Assembly: GCF_014174165.1 (NCBI RefSeq)
Contig: NZ_JABEQN010000023.1
Span: 1 to 64,000, forward strand
DNA from: Gluconacetobacter dulcium
GTDB lineage: Bacteria > Pseudomonadota > Alphaproteobacteria > Acetobacterales > Acetobacteraceae
Direction: 5' to 3'
Length of the DNA: 64,000 nt
Position 1 is the first letter of the stretch. Every line of letters begins with the position of its first letter. This document shows, piece by piece, positions 1 through 8,875 of the stretch. The notes beneath the pieces were generated by a model. It was not told the DNA's origin. It made no database searches and saw only the letters and a program-made list of their open reading frames with translations. The translations under genes were made by a program, and so were the position numbers.

Positions 1-472
1 TGTTCAGGGTTGAGCAAAGGCGGAAGGGACCCATGCTCCCAAACGGGCTCCAGACCCTCGGGGGGGACGGGCTCCCTTCCGCTATACATCCTCGCACATC
101 ACCAACAGACAAGGGGGGGGCAGAAGATAACGGGGCTCTGAAGCGAGGATTTTCATCTGGCGGATAGCAGATGATGTAGGGAACGGGGTCATACATAATA
201 AACGACAGTCGCGGCCGGCTATATGATGACCGGATCAGATCCTCCACCCGCCCCATGATTCGGTTGAGATGATGGACCTGCTCTTCTGTCGACAGGGATC
301 TAAAATCCTCCTTTTCGTCATCCGAAACCGGAGAGTGGTAGAAATCCACCGCCTTCAGGGCAGCTTGGCGCGCGTTCTCTGCGGCCTGATCGACCAGAAC
401 CTTCCGCATGGCCTGCTCGATCAGGTCCTTGAGAGCGATTTCGAGAGCGGGGGTGAGGGGGAAAGCGGTCAT
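1..472 (-). CDS. phage-element hypothetical protein, partial (C-terminus beyond left edge)
   Basis: The reading frame opens at an ATG at 472 and stays open for 157 codons to the left edge, so its stop lies outside the window. The start overlaps the stop of the upstream gene as ATGA, which supports translation as the third gene of a leftward operon behind the Cro-like gene. The first 70 residues look like charged amphipathic helices rich in Ala, Glu and Lys. The later part is rich in Pro, Ser and Tyr and has little secondary-structure character. I do not recognise the family. Its position, immediately downstream of cro in the rightward-arm equivalent of lambda, suggests an early phage function. 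Confidence 0.6.
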   Translation of the reverse strand, partial: MTAFPLTPALEIALKDLIEQAMRKVLVDQAAENARQAALKAVDFYHSPVSDDEKEDFRSLSTEEQVHHLNRIMGRVEDLIRSSYSRPRLSFIMYDPVPYIICYPPDENPRFRAPLSSAPPLSVGDVRGCIAEGSPSPPRVWSPFGSMGPFRLCSTLN

Positions 473-741
473 ACAGCATCTCCCGCCGACGGCGCCGAGG
501 CATCGACCCTCTTCATAACGAAGGCCACCAGCTTCTCCGCGTAGTCAAAAAGATCGTTTTCACGCCCCTTGCCGAGGACAACTCGCCCAAAGACGTAATC
601 TACGGCCCACATGCGCACGGCCTGTTCCGTCGATAGGTCCGCGTGGCATCGCACGTGGGCCGCATCCGACCGGATCGCCTCCGGGTGACCCGGAGCGTCC
701 TCGGCGGCATGTTGGGGAGTGTGAGGGACAGGAGGGGTCAT
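469..741 (-). CDS. small phage-element hypothetical protein
   Basis: This 90-residue protein starts at 741, overlapping the stop of the Cro-like gene by four bases, and its own stop overlaps the next start, so the three genes form a coupled leftward operon. The N-terminal 30 residues are Pro/His/Ala-rich and look disordered. Residues 37-80 contain a hydrophobic-aromatic stretch (around VRMWAVDYVFGRVVLG) followed by an acidic-basic helix. There is no signal peptide, cysteine motif or recognisable catalytic motif. Function unknown; it is likely expressed early with cro. Confidence 0.6.
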   Translation of the reverse strand: MTPPVPHTPQHAAEDAPGHPEAIRSDAAHVRCHADLSTEQAVRMWAVDYVFGRVVLGKGRENDLFDYAEKLVAFVMKRVDASAPSAGDAV

Positions 742-944
742 GCGGCTACTCCGCTAGGGAACAAATCCGGACGCAGTTTGCTTCGGTCGATTCCGGAGGC
801 TTTTTCAACCAGAACTACGCGCTCTGCTGGGATTTTTCCGCGTTTCTTCCAGCCGCATATGCTGGGAGGAGAGACGCCAATGGCCTTCGCCAAGGCGCAG
901 ACACCACCAGAACGCTTTATCGCGAGGTCGATCATGCTTTCCAT
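738..944 (-). CDS. Cro/YdaS-family HTH regulator
   Basis: The 68-residue protein is nearly all one helix-turn-helix unit. Residues 15-40 (ALAKAIGVSPPSICGWKKRG) match the Cro/YdaS pattern in which a short helix pair is followed by a G-W-K/R-R-G-x-I-P-A turn. In phages such proteins repress the CI gene and commit to lytic growth; in YdaS-YdaT loci they act as antitoxins. Divergent orientation from the repressor at 1037, with paired palindromes between them, argues for the Cro role. The promoter -10 element lies so close to the ATG that the mRNA may be leaderless; an internal ATG at 935 preceded by GGAAAG is an alternative start. Confidence 0.85.
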   Translation of the reverse strand: MESMIDLAIKRSGGVCALAKAIGVSPPSICGWKKRGKIPAERVVLVEKASGIDRSKLRPDLFPSGVAA

Positions 945-951
945 TTTGCGA

Positions 952-981
952 TAATTAGCACAGGGCTAATTTTCTGCGCAA
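952..981 (-). promoter_or_regulatory. candidate PR promoter for the cro operon
   Basis: Read on the minus strand, TTGCGC (981-976) is followed after 18 bases by TAATTA (957-952). The -10 box lies inside the inverted repeat at 953-971, so a bound repressor would block it. The layout parallels the promoter at 2229-2258 (TTGCGT-N18-TAATAA). Confidence 0.6.
953..971. promoter_or_regulatory. operator OR-1, perfect inverted repeat
   Basis: AATTAGC and GCTAATT are perfect 7-base inverted arms around a 5-base spacer (ACAGG). The core TTAGC-N5-GCTAA recurs at 989, 2206 and 2241, all next to divergent or early promoters, which is what repressor operators look like. It covers the -10 of the leftward cro promoter. 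Confidence 0.8.
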
Positions 982-988
982 GTGGACG

Positions 989-1003
989 TTAGCTACAGGC
1001 GAA
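989..1003. promoter_or_regulatory. operator OR-2, imperfect copy
   Basis: TTAGC, five bases (TACAG), then GCGAA: one mismatch from the consensus TTAGC-N5-GCTAA. Its centre lies 34 bases from OR-1. It lies between OR-1 and the repressor gene, where it could control the repressor's own promoter. Confidence 0.65.
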
Positions 1004-1036
1004 TATGAGAATGAAATTTTATGCCATTTTGGGGTT

Positions 1037-1360
1037 ATGAGTTTAGCAACGCGCTTGAGAACATTACGAGAACATGCAACCTTGGGTCAAGCCGAGGTTG
1101 CTGCCGCTCTCGACGTCTCCATACCGACGGTGAGTGAGTGGGAGTCCGGCAAGAAAAAGCCATCTCGACATAGGATTCCTGCGTTGGCCCGTCTCTTCGG
1201 TGTAAGCACTGATTACCTTTTGAGCGGCCAGGAGCTGCGTCTTCCAGATCGTGATGAAAATGGAGAAGAAGAATCTCTAGTGGCTTTATATAGAGCAGCA
1301 GACAGAGAGGTGAAAATTGCCGTTATGACGCTTCTCCGGGCAGCTTCTGATAAAAATTAG
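1037..1360 (+). CDS. CI-like XRE-family phage repressor
   Basis: The 107-residue protein has an N-terminal XRE helix-turn-helix (residues 6-60): LRTLREHATLGQAEVAAALD then SIPTVSEWESGKKKP, followed by the typical LARLFGVSTDYLLSG tail. It lacks the C-terminal peptidase domain of lambda CI, so it should dimerise by short C-terminal helices and would not be cleaved by RecA. It sits divergently to the Cro-like gene and is flanked on both sides by pairs of the same palindrome, making it the probable lysogeny repressor. Its last 38 bases overlap the convergent exonuclease gene. Base composition is lower in GC than the chromosome. Confidence 0.85.
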   Translation: MSLATRLRTLREHATLGQAEVAAALDVSIPTVSEWESGKKKPSRHRIPALARLFGVSTDYLLSGQELRLPDRDENGEEESLVALYRAADREVKIAVMTLLRAASDKN

Positions 1361-2156
1361 TTCGCTTAGTTACATTATTTCTTCTGGGTAGAATATCTGG
1401 GCGGCAAGGCGGCTCTATAAAGTTTTGCCATGACGGAAATTCAAAGTCCGACCGCGGTCTCTGACCCCTTACCCAGTAAAGCCAGATTGCCATACACATG
1501 AACGCATCTTCAAAAGCATCGTGCGTATCGCTCTTTCGATGTATGCCGATTCGTTCTGCGCAAGCCTTCAAAGAGGCAGGGTAAAAACCTTGGGCTCTAG
1601 CTTCTATCATTGTACAATATACTGGTTTTTCGGGCATCTCCTGCCTGCACATCTCGAATGATCTTTTTACAAATGGAATATCAAACGCAGCATTGTGCGC
1701 GATTATTGCATCGCACTCACTCAAGAAGTCTCGTATTTCGTCAAGTCTCTGTACGAATACCTCCTGATGCCTCAGCGTCCAGTCATCAATTCCATGTATG
1801 CGTTCGGCTTCTTTATGTGATTTTTTAAGTGGGTCAAATATAAGGTTTAAAATTTTCAAATTATTAGAGTGATCATTTTTTCTATTCACTAGTATCATTG
1901 AGAGACTTACAATTTGATCGGAACTATGTAGTCCTGTTGTTTCTATATCTATAAATAAAGGTCTATTTACGTCCTGAAGATAGCCTCCCGATCTCAGTGT
2001 ATCATTACCTTGTTTCTCCGAAGGCAACGACGTAGATGCAGCGGGCTGTATGGCTGCTGGAAGACTGTCGAACTGCTCGCATGAAGGCGGCGGCAATTTG
2101 ATCGGCTCGCTCGATTTTCTATCTTTCGATCCAAAGAGCCAGCGCCAAATTCCCAT
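1323..2156 (-). CDS. DEDD-family 3'-5' exonuclease (DnaQ-like), phage cargo
   Basis: The 277-residue protein has an N-terminal 65-residue Ser/Pro-rich linker and then a DnaQ-type exonuclease fold. Motifs are visible in order: FIDIETTGL (Exo I, about residue 68), IIAHNAAFD (Exo II) and THDAFEDA (Exo III), giving the four acidic residues and the histidine of the DEDDh class. The family removes nucleotides from 3' ends of DNA or RNA. The start at 2156 has a strong AGGAGGA site upstream. The gene is clearly more AT-rich than its neighbours and is transcribed against the repressor, as expected of a later-acquired cargo (moron) gene. Its substrate cannot be told from sequence. Confidence 0.85.
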   Translation of the reverse strand: MGIWRWLFGSKDRKSSEPIKLPPPSCEQFDSLPAAIQPAASTSLPSEKQGNDTLRSGGYLQDVNRPLFIDIETTGLHSSDQIVSLSMILVNRKNDHSNNLKILNLIFDPLKKSHKEAERIHGIDDWTLRHQEVFVQRLDEIRDFLSECDAIIAHNAAFDIPFVKRSFEMCRQEMPEKPVYCTMIEARAQGFYPASLKACAERIGIHRKSDTHDAFEDAFMCMAIWLYWVRGQRPRSDFEFPSWQNFIEPPCRPDILPRRNNVTKRTNFYQKLPGEAS

Positions 2157-2205
2157 TTGTTCCTCCTGATTGTTACATAAAATAACCGTCTCTGGCTGGA
2201 TGTGA

Positions 2206-2220
2206 TTAGCCTTAAGCTAA
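2206..2220. promoter_or_regulatory. operator OL-2, perfect inverted repeat
   Basis: TTAGC-CTTAA-GCTAA is a perfect copy of the palindrome at 953-971. It lies upstream of the rightward operon promoter, 35 bases (centre to centre) from the next copy. Confidence 0.8.
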
Positions 2221-2228
2221 AATTGCTC

Positions 2229-2258
2229 TTGCGTGATTAATTAGCTTGTAGCTAATAA
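2229..2258 (+). promoter_or_regulatory. candidate PL promoter for the operon starting at 2278
   Basis: TTGCGT (2229-2234), 18-base spacer, TAATAA (2253-2258). The -10 box overlaps operator 2241-2255. Transcription would begin near 2265, leaving about 13 bases before the ATG at 2278. Confidence 0.6.
2241..2255. promoter_or_regulatory. operator OL-1, perfect inverted repeat
   Basis: TTAGC-TTGTA-GCTAA, a perfect copy of the palindrome. It lies between the -35 and -10 of the candidate rightward promoter and runs into the -10. Confidence 0.8.
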
Positions 2259-2277
2259 TGACCATCGCCACCCCGCG

Positions 2278-2580
2278 ATGGAGGAACCGTTGCCCACCAC
2301 CCCACAGACCATCACCGTCACGCTAGGCTCGTCCTATGTGGACCGCGTTACCGGCTTCAGCGGTATCGCAACCGCCCGGACCGAGTATCTGACCGGCCGT
2401 AGCCGCGTCGAGCTTTCACCCAGCTTGCGCCCCGACGGCAGGTTGCCCCGGCCCGAGTGGTTCGATGAGGAGCGGCTGGACCGGGCTCAGCCCTGCAACC
2501 TCGGAGGTCGTCCGAAGAAGGACGAGACCAGTCAGGAGGCTTCCGAACGCCGGGCGCGTGAACGGGCGATCCAGGCATGA
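2278..2580 (+). CDS. small conserved phage protein, first gene of the early operon
   Basis: A 100-residue protein. Residues 14-65 follow a pattern I recall in short phage and prophage proteins, a beta-rich core with YVDRVTGFSGIATARTEYLTG and, later, EWFDEERL. The function of that group is not established. The C-terminal third is highly charged and probably unstructured. It is the first gene behind the operator-controlled promoter and is coupled to the next gene by an ATGA overlap. Confidence 0.65.
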   Translation: MEEPLPTTPQTITVTLGSSYVDRVTGFSGIATARTEYLTGRSRVELSPSLRPDGRLPRPEWFDEERLDRAQPCNLGGRPKKDETSQEASERRARERAIQA

Positions 2581-2864
2581 GCGCGCGTCGACCGAATGCT
2601 GCGCTGGAAACCGCGGTGATCCCGCGCGCGGAACTGGACGCACAGAACGCGCTGCTGGCCTTGGCCGATCGCGCCCTTGGCCTGGTGATAGATGGCGGCC
2701 CGCATGGCGAAATGGCGCTGCTCGATCTGGAGCGGGCCTATATCCTCGCCCGCACCGTGATCCGTAACGGGATCGACAGTCGGCCGGTGCGTTTTGCCCC
2801 GACAACGGTGATGCGACGCCCCAACCGTCCACGCCGCGCCTGCATCGGCAGCATCGCGTCATGA
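2577..2864 (+). CDS. phage-element hypothetical protein
   Basis: A 95-residue protein whose ATG overlaps the preceding stop. Residues 12-65 form Ala/Leu-rich helices, while the C-terminal 30 residues are strongly basic (several Arg and Pro), compatible with nucleic-acid contact. No family recognised. Kept because start and stop are both coupled to neighbours. Confidence 0.5.
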   Translation: MSARRPNAALETAVIPRAELDAQNALLALADRALGLVIDGGPHGEMALLDLERAYILARTVIRNGIDSRPVRFAPTTVMRRPNRPRRACIGSIAS

Positions 2865-3091
2865 GCAACATCGGCCGCCAAATCACGAAGCTAGTCGACG
2901 CGATCCTGGCGCACCCGCCGACAGACAACGCTGAGTTGCTGGGCGCTGCGACGCAGATAGAGCGCGATGCGGCGTCCCTTTCGGAGACCTGTCTTACCCA
3001 GGCGCGCCGCCTGCGCGATTACGCCGCCGTCCGCCAAGCGCAGATGGACGGCGCTCCCCCTGAAAACACAATCGCCCCGGATGCGCGATAG
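2861..3091 (+). CDS. phage-element hypothetical protein, helical
   Basis: A 76-residue protein that starts within the preceding stop (ATGA). It reads as two amphipathic helices, residues 1-20 and 30-60, with no Trp, no membrane segment and one Cys. The spacing of hydrophobic residues would allow a short coiled coil. No family recognised. It ends 22 bases before the next start. Confidence 0.5.
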   Translation: MSNIGRQITKLVDAILAHPPTDNAELLGAATQIERDAASLSETCLTQARRLRDYAAVRQAQMDGAPPENTIAPDAR

Positions 3092-3977: not shown

Positions 3978-4525
3978 GCAAGCAGCGATACGCTTGGGTG
4001 CCGTCCGAAACCGGCGACGAGATGACGCTCATCGTGGACGGCAAACGTGCGGGCGCACTGATCCTGTGGGAAGACAACGAGGACCGTAGCCAAGGCTGGA
4101 CCTGTGTTGTGGTGACGGAAGACGGCGACGATCGGGAGCTTATGACGCCCGACGCATTTTGGACGCCTCTTGAGAAAGCGCAGCGGTTTTTGCTGGATGC
4201 AGTGGGGCTCGGTGATACCGATGCACCGGTATCGGAGGTACCGCAGGAGCCGGCGGTCACTCGGTTGGAACCTGGGCGTGAGGTCGCACTGACGTGCTCG
4301 ATCGCCGCAATGTTGCGCCGGGAGCGCGGGAAAAGCGGCATGAGCCAGCAGGATCTGGCTCGGGCAGTCGGGGTCAAGACCGATGTCGTAAAGGACTGGG
4401 AGGCGGCTTTGCGTCAGCCTCGCATGGCGCAACTGCTCGATGTCTTGTCGGTTCTCGGCGCGCTGCCTCGCGCGATGCACGAGATCCTTGCAGAAAATGC
4501 AAAGAATTGGGGAGCGCAGTCATGA
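3974..4525 (+). CDS. XRE-type HTH protein with N-terminal domain of unknown function
   Basis: In this 183-residue protein residues 1-80 form a beta-rich unit of unknown type, residues 85-105 are an acidic Pro-containing linker, and residues 108-165 form an XRE helix-turn-helix (MLRRERGKSGMSQQDLARAV, then TDVVKDWEAALRQP). It is coupled by overlaps to the zinc-ribbon gene before it and to the adenine methyltransferase after it. HTH proteins next to methyltransferases often regulate them (C-protein or XRE type), so control of the two methylases is a reasonable guess. It could also be an early phage regulator. Confidence 0.7.
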   Translation: MSKQRYAWVPSETGDEMTLIVDGKRAGALILWEDNEDRSQGWTCVVVTEDGDDRELMTPDAFWTPLEKAQRFLLDAVGLGDTDAPVSEVPQEPAVTRLEPGREVALTCSIAAMLRRERGKSGMSQQDLARAVGVKTDVVKDWEAALRQPRMAQLLDVLSVLGALPRAMHEILAENAKNWGAQS

Positions 4526-5382
4526 ACGCCATCTCGCGCCCCGCCCTCCGCTGGCATGGCGGCAAATGGCGTCTTGCCCCGTGGGTGATCGAGCATTTTC
4601 CGCCGCACGATTGCTATGTCGAGCCGTTCGGCGGCGCGGCATCCGTCCTGCTGCGCAAGCCGCGTGTCGGCGCCGAGGTCTATAACGACCTGGACGACGA
4701 CGTGGTCGGCTTGTTCCGGGTCCTCCGCGACGCCGAACAGGCGCAACGTCTGATCGCCCAGCTACGCCTGACCCCGTTCGCACGGGCCGAGGATGCCGAT
4801 TGTCGCCGGCCGGCGCCCGGTGCGGATCCGGTGGAGCGGGCGCGGCGAATGATCGCCCGGTCGTTTATGGGGTTCGGGAGCGACAGCAGCCGGCAGGACC
4901 GCACCACGGGCTTCCGCTCATCGACCAACCGAGACAGCGGGAAATCGACACCGGCCCGCGACTGGTCGAACTATCCGGATGCGTTGCGCCTGATCGTGGA
5001 TCGCCTACAGGCGGTCGTGATCGAGCATCGCGACGCGATCGAGGTCATGCGCCAACATGATCGGCCGACGACGCTGCATTACGTCGATCCGCCGTATCTG
5101 CCGGCGACGCGGCGCCTGTCGCATCGGGGTCATGGATACGTCCACGAACTGACGACAGAGGATCATAGCCGGCTGCTGGCCGCGCTGTGCGAGCTGACCG
5201 GCATGGTGGTCCTGAGCGGCTATCCGCACCGGTCCTATGACGCCGCGCTGCCTGGCTGGATGCGCGTCACCACCAGTACCCATGCCGACGGCGCCCAGCC
5301 GCGCGTCGAGGCGCTTTGGATCAATCCGGCTGCCCAGCAGGCCCTCGCGCAGCAGAGTTTGCCGTTTGGAGAGGTAGCATGA
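4522..5382 (+). CDS. Dam-like (D12 class) N6-adenine DNA methyltransferase
   Basis: Start at ATG 4522, overlapping the preceding stop; 286 residues, normal for the D12 family. It opens with LRWHGGKWRLAPWVIEHFP, the usual N-terminal signature that binds S-adenosylmethionine, followed by YVEPFGGAASVLL (motif I/X region) and, late in the protein, YVDPPYLP, the catalytic DPPY motif. It transfers a methyl group to the N6 of adenine in DNA. The phage context and absence of a neighbouring endonuclease suggest a solitary methylase protecting phage DNA from host restriction or adjusting gene expression. The target sequence cannot be read from the protein. Confidence 0.9.
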   Translation: MNAISRPALRWHGGKWRLAPWVIEHFPPHDCYVEPFGGAASVLLRKPRVGAEVYNDLDDDVVGLFRVLRDAEQAQRLIAQLRLTPFARAEDADCRRPAPGADPVERARRMIARSFMGFGSDSSRQDRTTGFRSSTNRDSGKSTPARDWSNYPDALRLIVDRLQAVVIEHRDAIEVMRQHDRPTTLHYVDPPYLPATRRLSHRGHGYVHELTTEDHSRLLAALCELTGMVVLSGYPHRSYDAALPGWMRVTTSTHADGAQPRVEALWINPAAQQALAQQSLPFGEVA

Positions 5383-7049
5383 ACGTGCTTGCCCCGATCG
5401 GCCGTTTGGCGCCGATGCAATGGTCCCTGGACACCGCTATCAACGTGGTTCTATTCGCGGGCCTCGGTGGCGCCTGTGCGGGCCTGGAGGATGCGGGCCT
5501 GCCGGTCCACGTCGCCAACAACCACGACCCGGTGGCGTTGGCCGCGCACGCCGCGCTGTTTCCGCACACGAGGCACGTCAAGGGCGATATCTTCGACGTC
5601 TGCCCGATCGCGGCGACTGGCGGCAGGGCTGTGAATTTTCTCTGGGCGTCCCCGGATTGCCGCGATCACTCGGTCGCCAAAGGCGCGGCCCCGCGATCGG
5701 CGCGGGTGCGCTCCCTGCCGTGGCAGGTCTGCCGCTGGATCGGCAAGACGCGGCCGGTGGCGGTCGGCATGGAAAACGTCCGGGAAATCCGTGGCTGGGG
5801 GCCGCTGATCGCCAAGCGGGACAAGGCGACCGGCCGCGTCCTCAAGCTGGACGGCACCGTGGCCGAGCGGGGCGAGCGCGTGCCGCGTCACCAGCAGCAG
5901 CTCGTCCGTGACAAGCGGCGTGCTGGCCGGAGCTACCGTGCGTTCGTCGCGCATATCCGGGGGCTGGGTTACGATTATCAGGACCGCGATCTGTGCTGCG
6001 CCGATTACGGCATCCCGACCAGCCGCCGACGCTGGTTCGCGGTGGCGCGGCGGGACGGCCAGCCGATCGAATGGCCCGAGCAGACGCACGCGCCGGCGGA
6101 CAAAGCCAAGGCCCTCGGCCTGCGGCCATGGGTGGGTGCCCACACGATCATCGACTGGTCGATCCCGATGCAGTCGATTTTCGACCGTGCCCGGCCGCTG
6201 GCCGCGAATACCAATCACCGGATCGCAGTCGGACTGCGGAAATTCGTTCTGGATTCGCCACGGCCGTTCATTTTGCCGCTTACCCATACAGGCGGTGTGC
6301 GCGTCCATGACATGCAGGAGCCTCTGCGGACGCTGACGACTGCGCATCGCGGCGAACTGGCGGTCGTGGCGCCGACGCTCGCGACACTTGCGCACGGCGA
6401 CTTCCCCGGCGAAATCCGGAGCCCAGTCGATATCCGGAAGCCTATCGGCACCCTGACTGCTGGTGGAAACAAGTTCGCCTTGGTCGCCACCTGGATGGTT
6501 CAGCACAATTTCACGGTCGCCGAAGGCGTGATCGGTGCCAGCATGGATCAGCCTCTTTCGACGTTGGTCACACGCGGCACACAGAAATACGTCGCGGCGG
6601 CCAGCCTGACGAAACTGCGTGGCACCAGCACGGCGGCTGACGTTCGAGATCCGGTACCGACGCTTTCGGCCGGCGGGAACCATGTCGCGGCGGTCGCGGC
6701 GTTCCTGACCAAGTATTACGGGCAGGGCGGCGTCGCCCAGGGCGTGGAGGATCCACTGCATACCCTGACCACACTGGCCCGGTACGGAGTCGTCACCGTC
6801 CAGTTCCAGGGCATGCCGCATGCGCTGTCCGACATCCTGATGCGGATGCTCGCCCCATCCGAGGCTGCCGCTGCGCATGAGCTGACGCTGCCGGAATGGA
6901 TCGAGATCGACGGAAAGCGCCGGCGCCTTACCAAATCGGAAAGCATGCGCCTGATCGGCAACAGCGTGCCCAAACGCATGGCCACCCTGCTGGCCCAGGC
7001 AAACCGCGTCACCGCCCTCGATCGGGCGGCGGTGATCGCTGCGGAGTGA
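5379..7049 (+). CDS. C5-cytosine DNA methyltransferase with repeat-containing recognition region
   Basis: The 556-residue protein (ATG 5379 overlapping the preceding stop) carries C5-methyltransferase motifs in order: LFAGLGGACAGLEDAG (I), ASPDCRDHS with the catalytic Cys (IV; PDC replaces the common PPC), MENVRE (VI), YGIPTSRRRWF (VIII), and IGNSVP (X). Between motifs VIII and X, where the target-recognition domain lies, about five degenerate repeats of the form xxPLxTLTT...V occur. It methylates C5 of cytosine in DNA. Next to the adenine methylase it forms a two-methylase block with no restriction gene. Confidence 0.9.
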   Translation: MNVLAPIGRLAPMQWSLDTAINVVLFAGLGGACAGLEDAGLPVHVANNHDPVALAAHAALFPHTRHVKGDIFDVCPIAATGGRAVNFLWASPDCRDHSVAKGAAPRSARVRSLPWQVCRWIGKTRPVAVGMENVREIRGWGPLIAKRDKATGRVLKLDGTVAERGERVPRHQQQLVRDKRRAGRSYRAFVAHIRGLGYDYQDRDLCCADYGIPTSRRRWFAVARRDGQPIEWPEQTHAPADKAKALGLRPWVGAHTIIDWSIPMQSIFDRARPLAANTNHRIAVGLRKFVLDSPRPFILPLTHTGGVRVHDMQEPLRTLTTAHRGELAVVAPTLATLAHGDFPGEIRSPVDIRKPIGTLTAGGNKFALVATWMVQHNFTVAEGVIGASMDQPLSTLVTRGTQKYVAAASLTKLRGTSTAADVRDPVPTLSAGGNHVAAVAAFLTKYYGQGGVAQGVEDPLHTLTTLARYGVVTVQFQGMPHALSDILMRMLAPSEAAAAHELTLPEWIEIDGKRRRLTKSESMRLIGNSVPKRMATLLAQANRVTALDRAAVIAAE

Positions 7050-7531: not shown

Positions 7532-7892
7532 GGCACCCTACCTGAAGCTCGACCGCGTGCTTGCCGATTTACGGGGGATCGTGGGGCGCACGAAGCTCCT
7601 GGCGCACCTGAAAGCCATGCCGTCATTCAATGGTGCGCCCACGCATCGGAGGATCGGCAATAAGATTCTCTTTCGTCCCGAAGATATAAAATGCTTGCTT
7701 GAAAGTCTGGAATGCCCCTCGCCATCGTCAAGCGGAAAGGCCGCGAAACACTCTATGTCCGTGGAACCGTCCGAGGACAGGGCATATTCGAAAGCACAGG
7801 CACTACTGACCCGAAGCAGGCAGAGGCTTACAGAGCAAAACGCGAGGCGGAACTCTGGGAGGAGTCGGTCTATGGCAAGCGGGCTGTCGTAA
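7524..7892 (+). CDS. xis: excisionase-like winged-helix protein
   Basis: Residues 1-65 match the short HTH/excisionase proteins that precede integrases in alphaproteobacterial prophages: TKLLAHLKAMPSF, then the wing R-I-G-N-K-I-L-F-R-P-E-D-I and CPSPSSS. The C-terminal part (VEPSEDRAYSKAQALLTR) also looks like the family's usual tail, so I accept the full 122 residues even though the last 181 bases also encode the start of the integrase in another frame. Excisionases bend DNA at the attachment site and direct the integrase to excise. I know this family by pattern memory only. Confidence 0.7.
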   Translation: MVEAPYLKLDRVLADLRGIVGRTKLLAHLKAMPSFNGAPTHRRIGNKILFRPEDIKCLLESLECPSPSSSGKAAKHSMSVEPSEDRAYSKAQALLTRSRQRLTEQNARRNSGRSRSMASGLS

Positions 7893-8875
7893 CGTTCGCG
7901 AGTGCCGTAACCGCATATCTTGAGGCCGAGCAGAGGAGCGCAACGACGCTGACACATACAGACCGACTGTTGCGGCATTTTGGCACGCGCAAGGTCAACC
8001 AGATAGGCCAGGCTGATCTTGACCAGGCATACAAGGCGATCCTGACCAAGGGTGCCGAGACGTCGGCCGCAACCAAGATAAGGGCCGTCCTGACGCCACT
8101 GCGCGCCATCCTCGAGTTTTCAGCCATTCGCGGGTGGTGCTCCAAACCAGCGTTCGAGCGGCCCCGGATCACTCAAACCAAGATGCGGTTCCTGCGGCCC
8201 GATGAGGCGACCGATCTGGTCAACGCCGCCGCACCGCATGTGCGGCCGCTGCTGGTATTCCTGATCGCAACCGGTGCGCGGATGTCGGAGGCCCTGGAGC
8301 TGGAGTGGCAGGATGTCGATCTGGACGGGTGCCGGGCCGTTGTATGGCAAAAGCAGGGTGATGAGCGGCATATCGACCTGCCGCCTGTGGCGGTGTTGGC
8401 CTTGACCGGGATCGCTCACCGGACCGGCCGCGTGTTTCGCCCTGTTCGGAGCCGCCGCCCTGTTGGAGCTACAGCCGGCAAAGAGATCGGAGAGGGGTAT
8501 CACGACACGGGCCGAACGGGCGGGGGGCAGATCAAGAGCGCATGGGCTTTCGCCTGCAAGCGCGCGGGGCTGCCGGGTCACGAGCGCGTGTGGTTACCGA
8601 AGGGTAGCCGGTCGGAAAAGCGCCAGTTCGTGCCCGACCTGACGCCGCATAGCCTGCGTCACACGTTCGCCACCTGGCACTATTGCGTCCACAAGGACCT
8701 CCTGAAGCTCAAGGAGGATGGGGGCTGGCAGACCATCACTATGGTAACGCTCTATGCGAAAAAGATGCCGGATTACTATCGGGCGGCGATTCGGACTTGG
8801 CTCGCTCATACGGACTGGACAGACATCGCCGGATGTGTGCCAAATCCGTGCCAAGCGCGAGATGGTGATAAATAA
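7712..8875 (+). CDS. int: tyrosine-family site-specific integrase
   Basis: The 387-residue protein has an N-terminal basic arm-binding part (VKRKGRETLYVRGTVRG), a SAM-like core-binding domain (residues 60-150) and a catalytic domain. Active-site signatures are visible: GARMSEALELEW (first Arg), TPHSLRHTFATW (His-x-x-Arg), GGW, and LYAKKMP containing the nucleophilic Tyr. It cuts and rejoins DNA at att sites to insert or remove the element. The gene ends 33 bases before a tRNA-Val 3' fragment, its probable attachment site. The start at 7712 lies inside the excisionase-like gene. Confidence 0.95.
   Translation: MPLAIVKRKGRETLYVRGTVRGQGIFESTGTTDPKQAEAYRAKREAELWEESVYGKRAVVTFASAVTAYLEAEQRSATTLTHTDRLLRHFGTRKVNQIGQADLDQAYKAILTKGAETSAATKIRAVLTPLRAILEFSAIRGWCSKPAFERPRITQTKMRFLRPDEATDLVNAAAPHVRPLLVFLIATGARMSEALELEWQDVDLDGCRAVVWQKQGDERHIDLPPVAVLALTGIAHRTGRVFRPVRSRRPVGATAGKEIGEGYHDTGRTGGGQIKSAWAFACKRAGLPGHERVWLPKGSRSEKRQFVPDLTPHSLRHTFATWHYCVHKDLLKLKEDGGWQTITMVTLYAKKMPDYYRAAIRTWLAHTDWTDIAGCVPNPCQARDGDK

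Follow-up and report, generated by a model that had tools for sequence, protein, structure and literature searches.

Background

In phage lambda, two operator clusters flank the cI gene and the outward promoters are repressed. One site lies at about -42 of the leaderless cI promoter, and the cargo rex is found in the same interval. The closest known system to the locus described here is prophage CP-933P of E. coli O157:H7, in which the small repressor PaaR2 has no peptidase motif, YdaS acts as Cro, the PaaR2 and YdaS sites overlap at PRM/PR, and a second promoter, PL, is also repressed, so that both OR and OL are present (PMC8630535). The paaR2 gene is transcribed without a leader, and its product assembles into octamers (PMC8630535). 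Because CP-933P combines OR and OL with PaaR2/YdaS, the two-sided design with a non-cleavable repressor is already known from experiment (PMC8630535). RacR/YdaS of Rac has the repeats TTAGGC/GCCTAA (PMC5700373). In the open literature searched, no repressor operator was described from prophages carried by acetic acid bacteria and their relatives.

We analyzed a window of 64,000 nucleotides from Gluconacetobacter dulcium (positions 1 to 64,000 of contig NZ_JABEQN010000023.1), which begins within a prophage (1-471), the left arm being outside the window. Near this end we find what would be a prophage immunity switch with four CI operators, combining repression from the proximal sites and probable activation from the distal sites, with a YdaS-type Cro counterpart. 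We give this reading a probability of about 0.8.

Paired palindromes in the intergenic regions

The original prediction, made from the letters of the window, listed three perfect copies of TTAGC-N5-GCTAA and one copy with a single mismatch, forming two pairs with centre spacings of 34 and 35 bp. Both the coordinates and the spacings were confirmed. The perfect copies are the proximal operator on the cro side (955-969), which is kept in five relatives, and the distal (2206-2220) and proximal (2241-2255) operators on the early-operon side. The distal operator on the cI side (989-1003) carries the mismatch and its centre is 41 bp 5' of the cI ATG. The distance from proximal site to proximal site is 1286 bp, and in the relatives the pairs are about 480 to 1306 bp apart. 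A genome search for additional copies, proposed together with the prediction, found perfect palindromes in 3 places, all at this locus, versus 5 for the reversed control pattern (4,412,138 bp, 76 contigs). Allowing one mismatch added 7 places, including the site at 989, compared with 101 for the reversed control. None of 20,000 shuffles of both intergenic regions yielded as many as three identical 5-5-5 inverted repeats. Matches with two mismatches are not above chance in the window (6 observed, 6.8 expected); for this reason only perfect or near-perfect paired sites were given weight. This last count is what would be expected if the four palindromes were chance products of an AT-rich stretch, but that explanation is refuted by the genome-wide uniqueness of the perfect sites, by the shuffles and by the spacing and promoter register that are kept among the loci, and its probability is negligible. 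The palindromes are with high probability real and functional. A third candidate site (1043-1057), with two mismatches and within the start of cI, was dismissed as chance.

Outward promoters

Each proximal operator overlaps the -10 box of a predicted promoter directed outward, as had been claimed. On the minus strand, Pcro is TTGCGC-N18-TAATTA (981-976 and 957-952), with the -35 box at 976-981 and the -10 box at 952-957. On the plus strand, the rightward early promoter, Pearly, is TTGCGT-N18-TAATAA, with the -35 box at 2229-2234 in the conserved register and the -10 box at 2253-2258. A generic sigma-70 scan listed neither of them, and they were therefore judged by their conserved register. In 12/12 outward promoters from six loci, Pcro included, 19 bp separate the start of the -35 TTG from the downstream centre of the proximal operator, and this register scores 39.7 bits, versus 5.8 for the next one. 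The -10 box is at +5 from the same centre, in Pcro as in the six loci as a whole. The end of the -10 box is 6-8 bp from the cro ATG (8 bases in the window), so the cro message is predicted to be leaderless.

Related loci with the same layout

Relatives were drawn from IMG/VR, GTDB contigs and genomes of the family Acetobacteraceae. Five of them share one order with the window: Cro (minus strand), paired sites, cI (plus strand), an optional cargo gene, paired sites and early operon (plus strand). In L034, CI is 65% identical and the cargo is an exonuclease 45% identical over 207 residues to that of the window. L053, from Acetobacter okinawensis, has a CI 70% identical, and its cargo is a gene of 121 aa that does not encode an exonuclease. 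In L005, from Roseomonas acroporae, CI is 55% identical over the HTH and has another C-terminal domain, and in L037 it is 52% identical; both lack cargo. The palindrome itself is changed to GTAGC-N5-GCTAC in L037 and to GTACC-N5-GGTAC in L193 (genome G107), which also has two sites on each side. Even so, the spacing of the paired sites is 33-36 bp in all six loci. The layout and promoter register bear out the comparison with lambda OL/OR made by the original prediction, as a mirror image, with operators on both sides of cI at two outward promoters. The reading of the sites as repressor operators, with a pair at an outward promoter on either side, is strongly supported by the conserved layout, the geometry and the covariation described below.

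The paired motif was found in 2/397 Acetobacteraceae genomes, both times at the cI locus, and a Megablast search of phage records with the end of the prophage gave no match. Since only two relatives were recovered by a profile scan of GTDB contigs, and searching the whole family by profile added few, the close series is limited to six loci. Arrays similar to TAGC-N5-GCTA, with a spacing of 41-42 bp, are located directly upstream of a CI-like gene in L038, L042 and L049.

CI-like repressor and Cro-like protein

The CI-like repressor (1037-1360, plus strand) is an HTH protein of 107 aa (Pfam HTH_31/HTH_3), predicted to be translated from a leaderless message. An AlphaFold2 model built on an alignment of five sequences (pLDDT 79.6) has the HTH followed by two C-terminal helices, the latter modelled at moderate confidence. 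The HTH resembles those of P22 c2, ImmR and the 434 repressor. No Pfam match to an S24 peptidase domain was found in the 107 residues and the model does not have it either, in agreement with the prediction of a repressor without cleavable C-terminal domain. CI is thus a small Xre repressor without peptidase domain, as in PaaR2/YdaS-type regions. The Cro-like regulator (738-944, minus strand) has 68 aa and belongs to the YdaS/P22-Cro family (PF15943, 56.7 bits, cut-off 30), also as in PaaR2/YdaS-type regions; its PDB match is the Xylella Cro 3bd1 (E 6e-11). The two genes are divergent and have a common operator region, as in lambdoid phages. The gene after cro (469-741, minus strand) has no significant family match. 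The contig begins at base 1 and further genes are missing; contigs C25 and C3 of this genome have terminase-like matches.

Palindromes shared with S24-type phages and covariation with CI

When IMG/VR was scanned for exact paired sites, 29 loci were found with TTAGC, 12 with GTAGC, 4 with ATAGC and 17 with CTAGC. The ATAGC and CTAGC loci were set aside as they have no convincing CI neighbour, and the CTAGC pairs are often part of tandem arrays. In L060, L094, L110, L130 and L144, arrays of CTAGC-N5-GCTAG have a period of about 33 bp and no repressor neighbour was detected.

Fifteen of the 29 TTAGC loci (among them L061, L063, L064, L087, L139, L161, L172 and L174) encode a different repressor, of S24 type (Peptidase_S24 confirmed by Pfam in L174), and have their four sites arranged on two sides in the same order, the pairs being 1172-3095 bp apart. 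Their Cro is mostly homologous to that of the window (about 31-39% identity over 53-56 residues). The distance from the Cro operator to the ATG is nearly equal and the early pair is likewise spaced by 34-35 bp. In contrast, the repressor is cleavable and has about 230-260 aa, the cI-side spacing is 47-59 bp and, in the loci examined for it, the cargo has the same orientation as cI. Use of the same operator code by an unrelated self-cleaving repressor suggests that the repressor type may be exchangeable and the operator/cro scaffold fixed. As these loci were found by motif search, the shared palindrome may reflect convergence rather than descent.

These phages also bear on the possibility that the palindromes serve chiefly the YdaS-family Cro-like protein, with CI binding elsewhere. 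In agreement with it, phages having the same palindrome carry Cro homologues at the corresponding place, and their CI proteins are not significantly similar to that of the window (E at least 0.06). However, shared Cro sites are expected anyway, as in lambda and CP-933P, and the outer base of the operator covaries with CI residue 29 in three repressor lineages. We consider this alternative improbable.

The covariation concerns a short CI motif, which reads SIPTVSEW or STPTVSEW with TTAGC operators (SIPTVSEW in the window), SRPTVSEW with GTAGC (as in L037) and SRPTVTQW with GTACC (L193). Wherever CI was identified at a GTAGC locus, it has Arg29 (10 loci, 3 lineages), whereas Arg29 is present at none of the TTAGC loci (5 lineages; lineage-level Fisher p=0.018). 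Independent lineages are few, however, and the comparison was made partly by eye, the helices of the S24-type proteins having been aligned in this way on a conserved Trp and Gly. A looser scan found one counterexample, L128, with Arg at the aligned position and T-type sites. Position 29 of CI aligns with Gln28 of the 434 repressor, which contacts the outermost operator base pair. L085 (6056-6546) has GTAGC-type pairs at two positions close to an HTH protein that carries Arg at the aligned residue, and constitutes a third Arg/G lineage. The strongest evidence that CI reads these palindromes comes from this covariation. The loci form a natural recoding series (TTAGC/GTAGC/GTACC), which provides testable residue-to-base predictions for small Xre repressors.

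Distal sites and predicted inward promoters

The distal operators, overlooked in this respect by the original prediction, probably have a second job besides repression, judging by their position. The distal operator centre is 41 bp 5' of the cI ATG in 5/6 loci, the exception being L037 (56 bp), where CI has a longer N-terminus. The distance from the other distal centre to the predicted start of the exonuclease cargo is likewise 41 bp, and this position is occupied by the exonuclease in the window and by a different gene in Acetobacter. The predicted -10 boxes of the cI maintenance promoter (CATTTT, 1025-1030, plus strand) and of the cargo promoter (TATTTT, 2179-2184, minus strand) are both in register 29 from the distal operator centre. 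This is the top -10 register for cI (n=5) and, separately, for cargo (n=3, since L005, L037 and L193 have no cargo promoter). The joint score of the cI and cargo boxes at register 29 was reached in 0/3000 shuffles, and the single sets in 1/3000 (cI) and 55/3000 (cargo); these counts are somewhat favourable, as the spacings were spotted by eye before testing. In five loci the spacing of the cI box is maintained despite differing spacer sequences, and the box is at a fitting distance from the ATG for a message predicted to be leaderless. In 6/6 loci the cI-side distal site is a poorer match to the palindrome than the proximal site, a likeness to OR2 versus OR1 of lambda. We take the position of the distal operator to be that of OR2 relative to PRM. 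Given this activating geometry, CI is probably an activator of both its own gene and the cargo.

It is also possible, though we think it rather unlikely, that the four palindromes are plain sites of CI/Cro repression, the distal ones merely raising occupancy, and that cI and cargo are not activated at all. The operators overlap or abut promoters and many Xre repressors act solely as repressors. Moreover, the inward promoters were predicted from the -10 register, no conserved -35 box having been established for them, and their boxes are individually weak (2.1 bits for CATTTT of cI in the window, -1.7 bits for TACTTC of the L034 cargo). Against this, the register-29 spacing is kept in five loci for the cI box and in three for the cargo box, and in the closest known system low PaaR2 raises PRM933P (PMC8630535). 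A wider form of the activation reading is a mirror-symmetric switch of four operators, in which the proximal sites repress both outward promoters, the distal sites at -41 activate both inward promoters, and the repressor type can be exchanged; we regard this form as tentative, at somewhat less than even odds.

Cargo and early operon

The exonuclease (1323-2156, minus strand) is a protein of 277 aa of the DEDDh 3'-5' type (PF00929, 66.7 bits), encoded convergently with cI. Its active-site-type residues D70, E72, D159, H212 and D217 are identical in L034. The claim that the operator pairs flank the repressor and exonuclease genes stands as regards the flanking. The exonuclease itself is, judging from the related loci, a replaceable cargo outside the core of the switch, its place being taken by another gene in L053. 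That gene (L053:3285-3650) encodes an apparently secreted protein of 121 aa without Pfam match. A search with the exonuclease gave no additional locus of this type.

The rightward operon extends from 2278 through to the tyrosine integrase, its last gene (7712-8875, plus strand, PF00589). The first early gene (2278-2580, plus strand; PHROG 16275) is of unknown function and its true start may be the TTG at 2290. At its predicted 5' end the early mRNA would form a hairpin (2262-2281, plus strand), the 3' arm of which lies next to the Shine-Dalgarno sequence or takes it into the stem. The hairpin is kept in L034, L053, L005, L037, L063 and L061 with differing stem sequences, and its z-score is -2.1 to -5.5 in the window and relatives, that of L161 not being significant. 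Translational control of the first early gene is possible. Adenine (D12) and C5-cytosine DNA methyltransferases are encoded by the early operon at 4294-7049. Beyond the integrase there are host-like genes, named from their translations as ruvX-like, gatA and gatB.

Proposed mechanism

From the reality and conservation of the sites, their promoter geometry and the covariation, all seen by comparison of loci, we infer binding, activation and competition by Cro as follows. CI on the proximal sites (955 and 2241) would block RNA polymerase at Pcro and Pearly, since these sites lie between the -35 and -10 boxes, and CI on the distal sites (989 and 2206) would activate the cI and cargo messages in the lysogen. 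The YdaS-type Cro would compete for the same sites and flip the switch. As CI has no self-cleaving domain, self-cleavage cannot be the means of induction, which must take another route, such as an antirepressor. In L005, the first gene past the early promoter (2200-3021) encodes a Rha-ANT antirepressor (PF09669, PF03374), which makes this route plausible in that locus and suggests induction independent of SOS. No antirepressor was identified in the window.

The two pairs could also be joined by a DNA loop, which the original prediction thought their distance would allow, through a repressor oligomer, as for lambda CI or as suggested for the octameric PaaR2. Two-sided pairs are kept in six loci, and also in the 15 S24-type phage loci over the distances given above. 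However, the distance between the pairs varies among the relatives, no oligomerisation domain was identified in CI, whose C-terminal helices are modelled at the moderate confidence already mentioned, and two promoters to be controlled already demand sites on two sides. We therefore see looping as doubtful. On the wider activation reading given above, a gene of whatever kind would be expressed in the lysogen once it lies between cI and the second pair, and the layout suggests a simple rule for how temperate phages confine cargo genes to lysogenic expression, namely by locating them inward of the second operator pair.

Comparison with known systems

In the literature on known systems we found no description of this operator sequence, of the paired spacing, of a cargo promoter spaced from an operator or of the recoding series. 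As in lambda, there are two clusters around cI, outward promoters and cargo in the interval. Unlike lambda, there are two sites per cluster instead of three, with wider spacing, the repressor has no cleavable domain, cro is predicted to be leaderless and the cargo lies on the other strand, where a separate promoter is predicted for it.

The likeness to CP-933P is closer. Both have a small repressor without self-cleavage peptidase, and in both the Cro is of the YdaS family and encoded on the other strand. There are sites at PRM/PR and again at a promoter beyond the cargo genes (PL in CP-933P), the repressor gene is leaderless (by prediction here), and in CP-933P low PaaR2 raises PRM (PMC8630535). 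However, the inverted-repeat consensus of CP-933P is GTTTAGTAA, and it has three to four close repeats, whereas here two sites are 34-35 bp apart (PMC8630535). In CP-933P the cargo, a toxin-antitoxin pair, belongs to the operon of the repressor (PMC8630535), whereas here it is convergent with cI and has a predicted promoter of its own, spaced from an operator. In CP-933P, YdaT follows ydaS (PMC8630535); here none was detected after cro, the contig edge being nearby. In the available part of the account of Rac, the repressor and YdaS genes are also divergent and the repeats are near the half-sites found here, but three repeats are located in one intergenic region and that part describes no second side (PMC5700373). 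The present locus provides candidate control sites in the prophages of acetic acid bacteria and their relatives, and from its sequence it would almost certainly be a lambda-like switch of a known kind, in a new and unusually symmetrical form.
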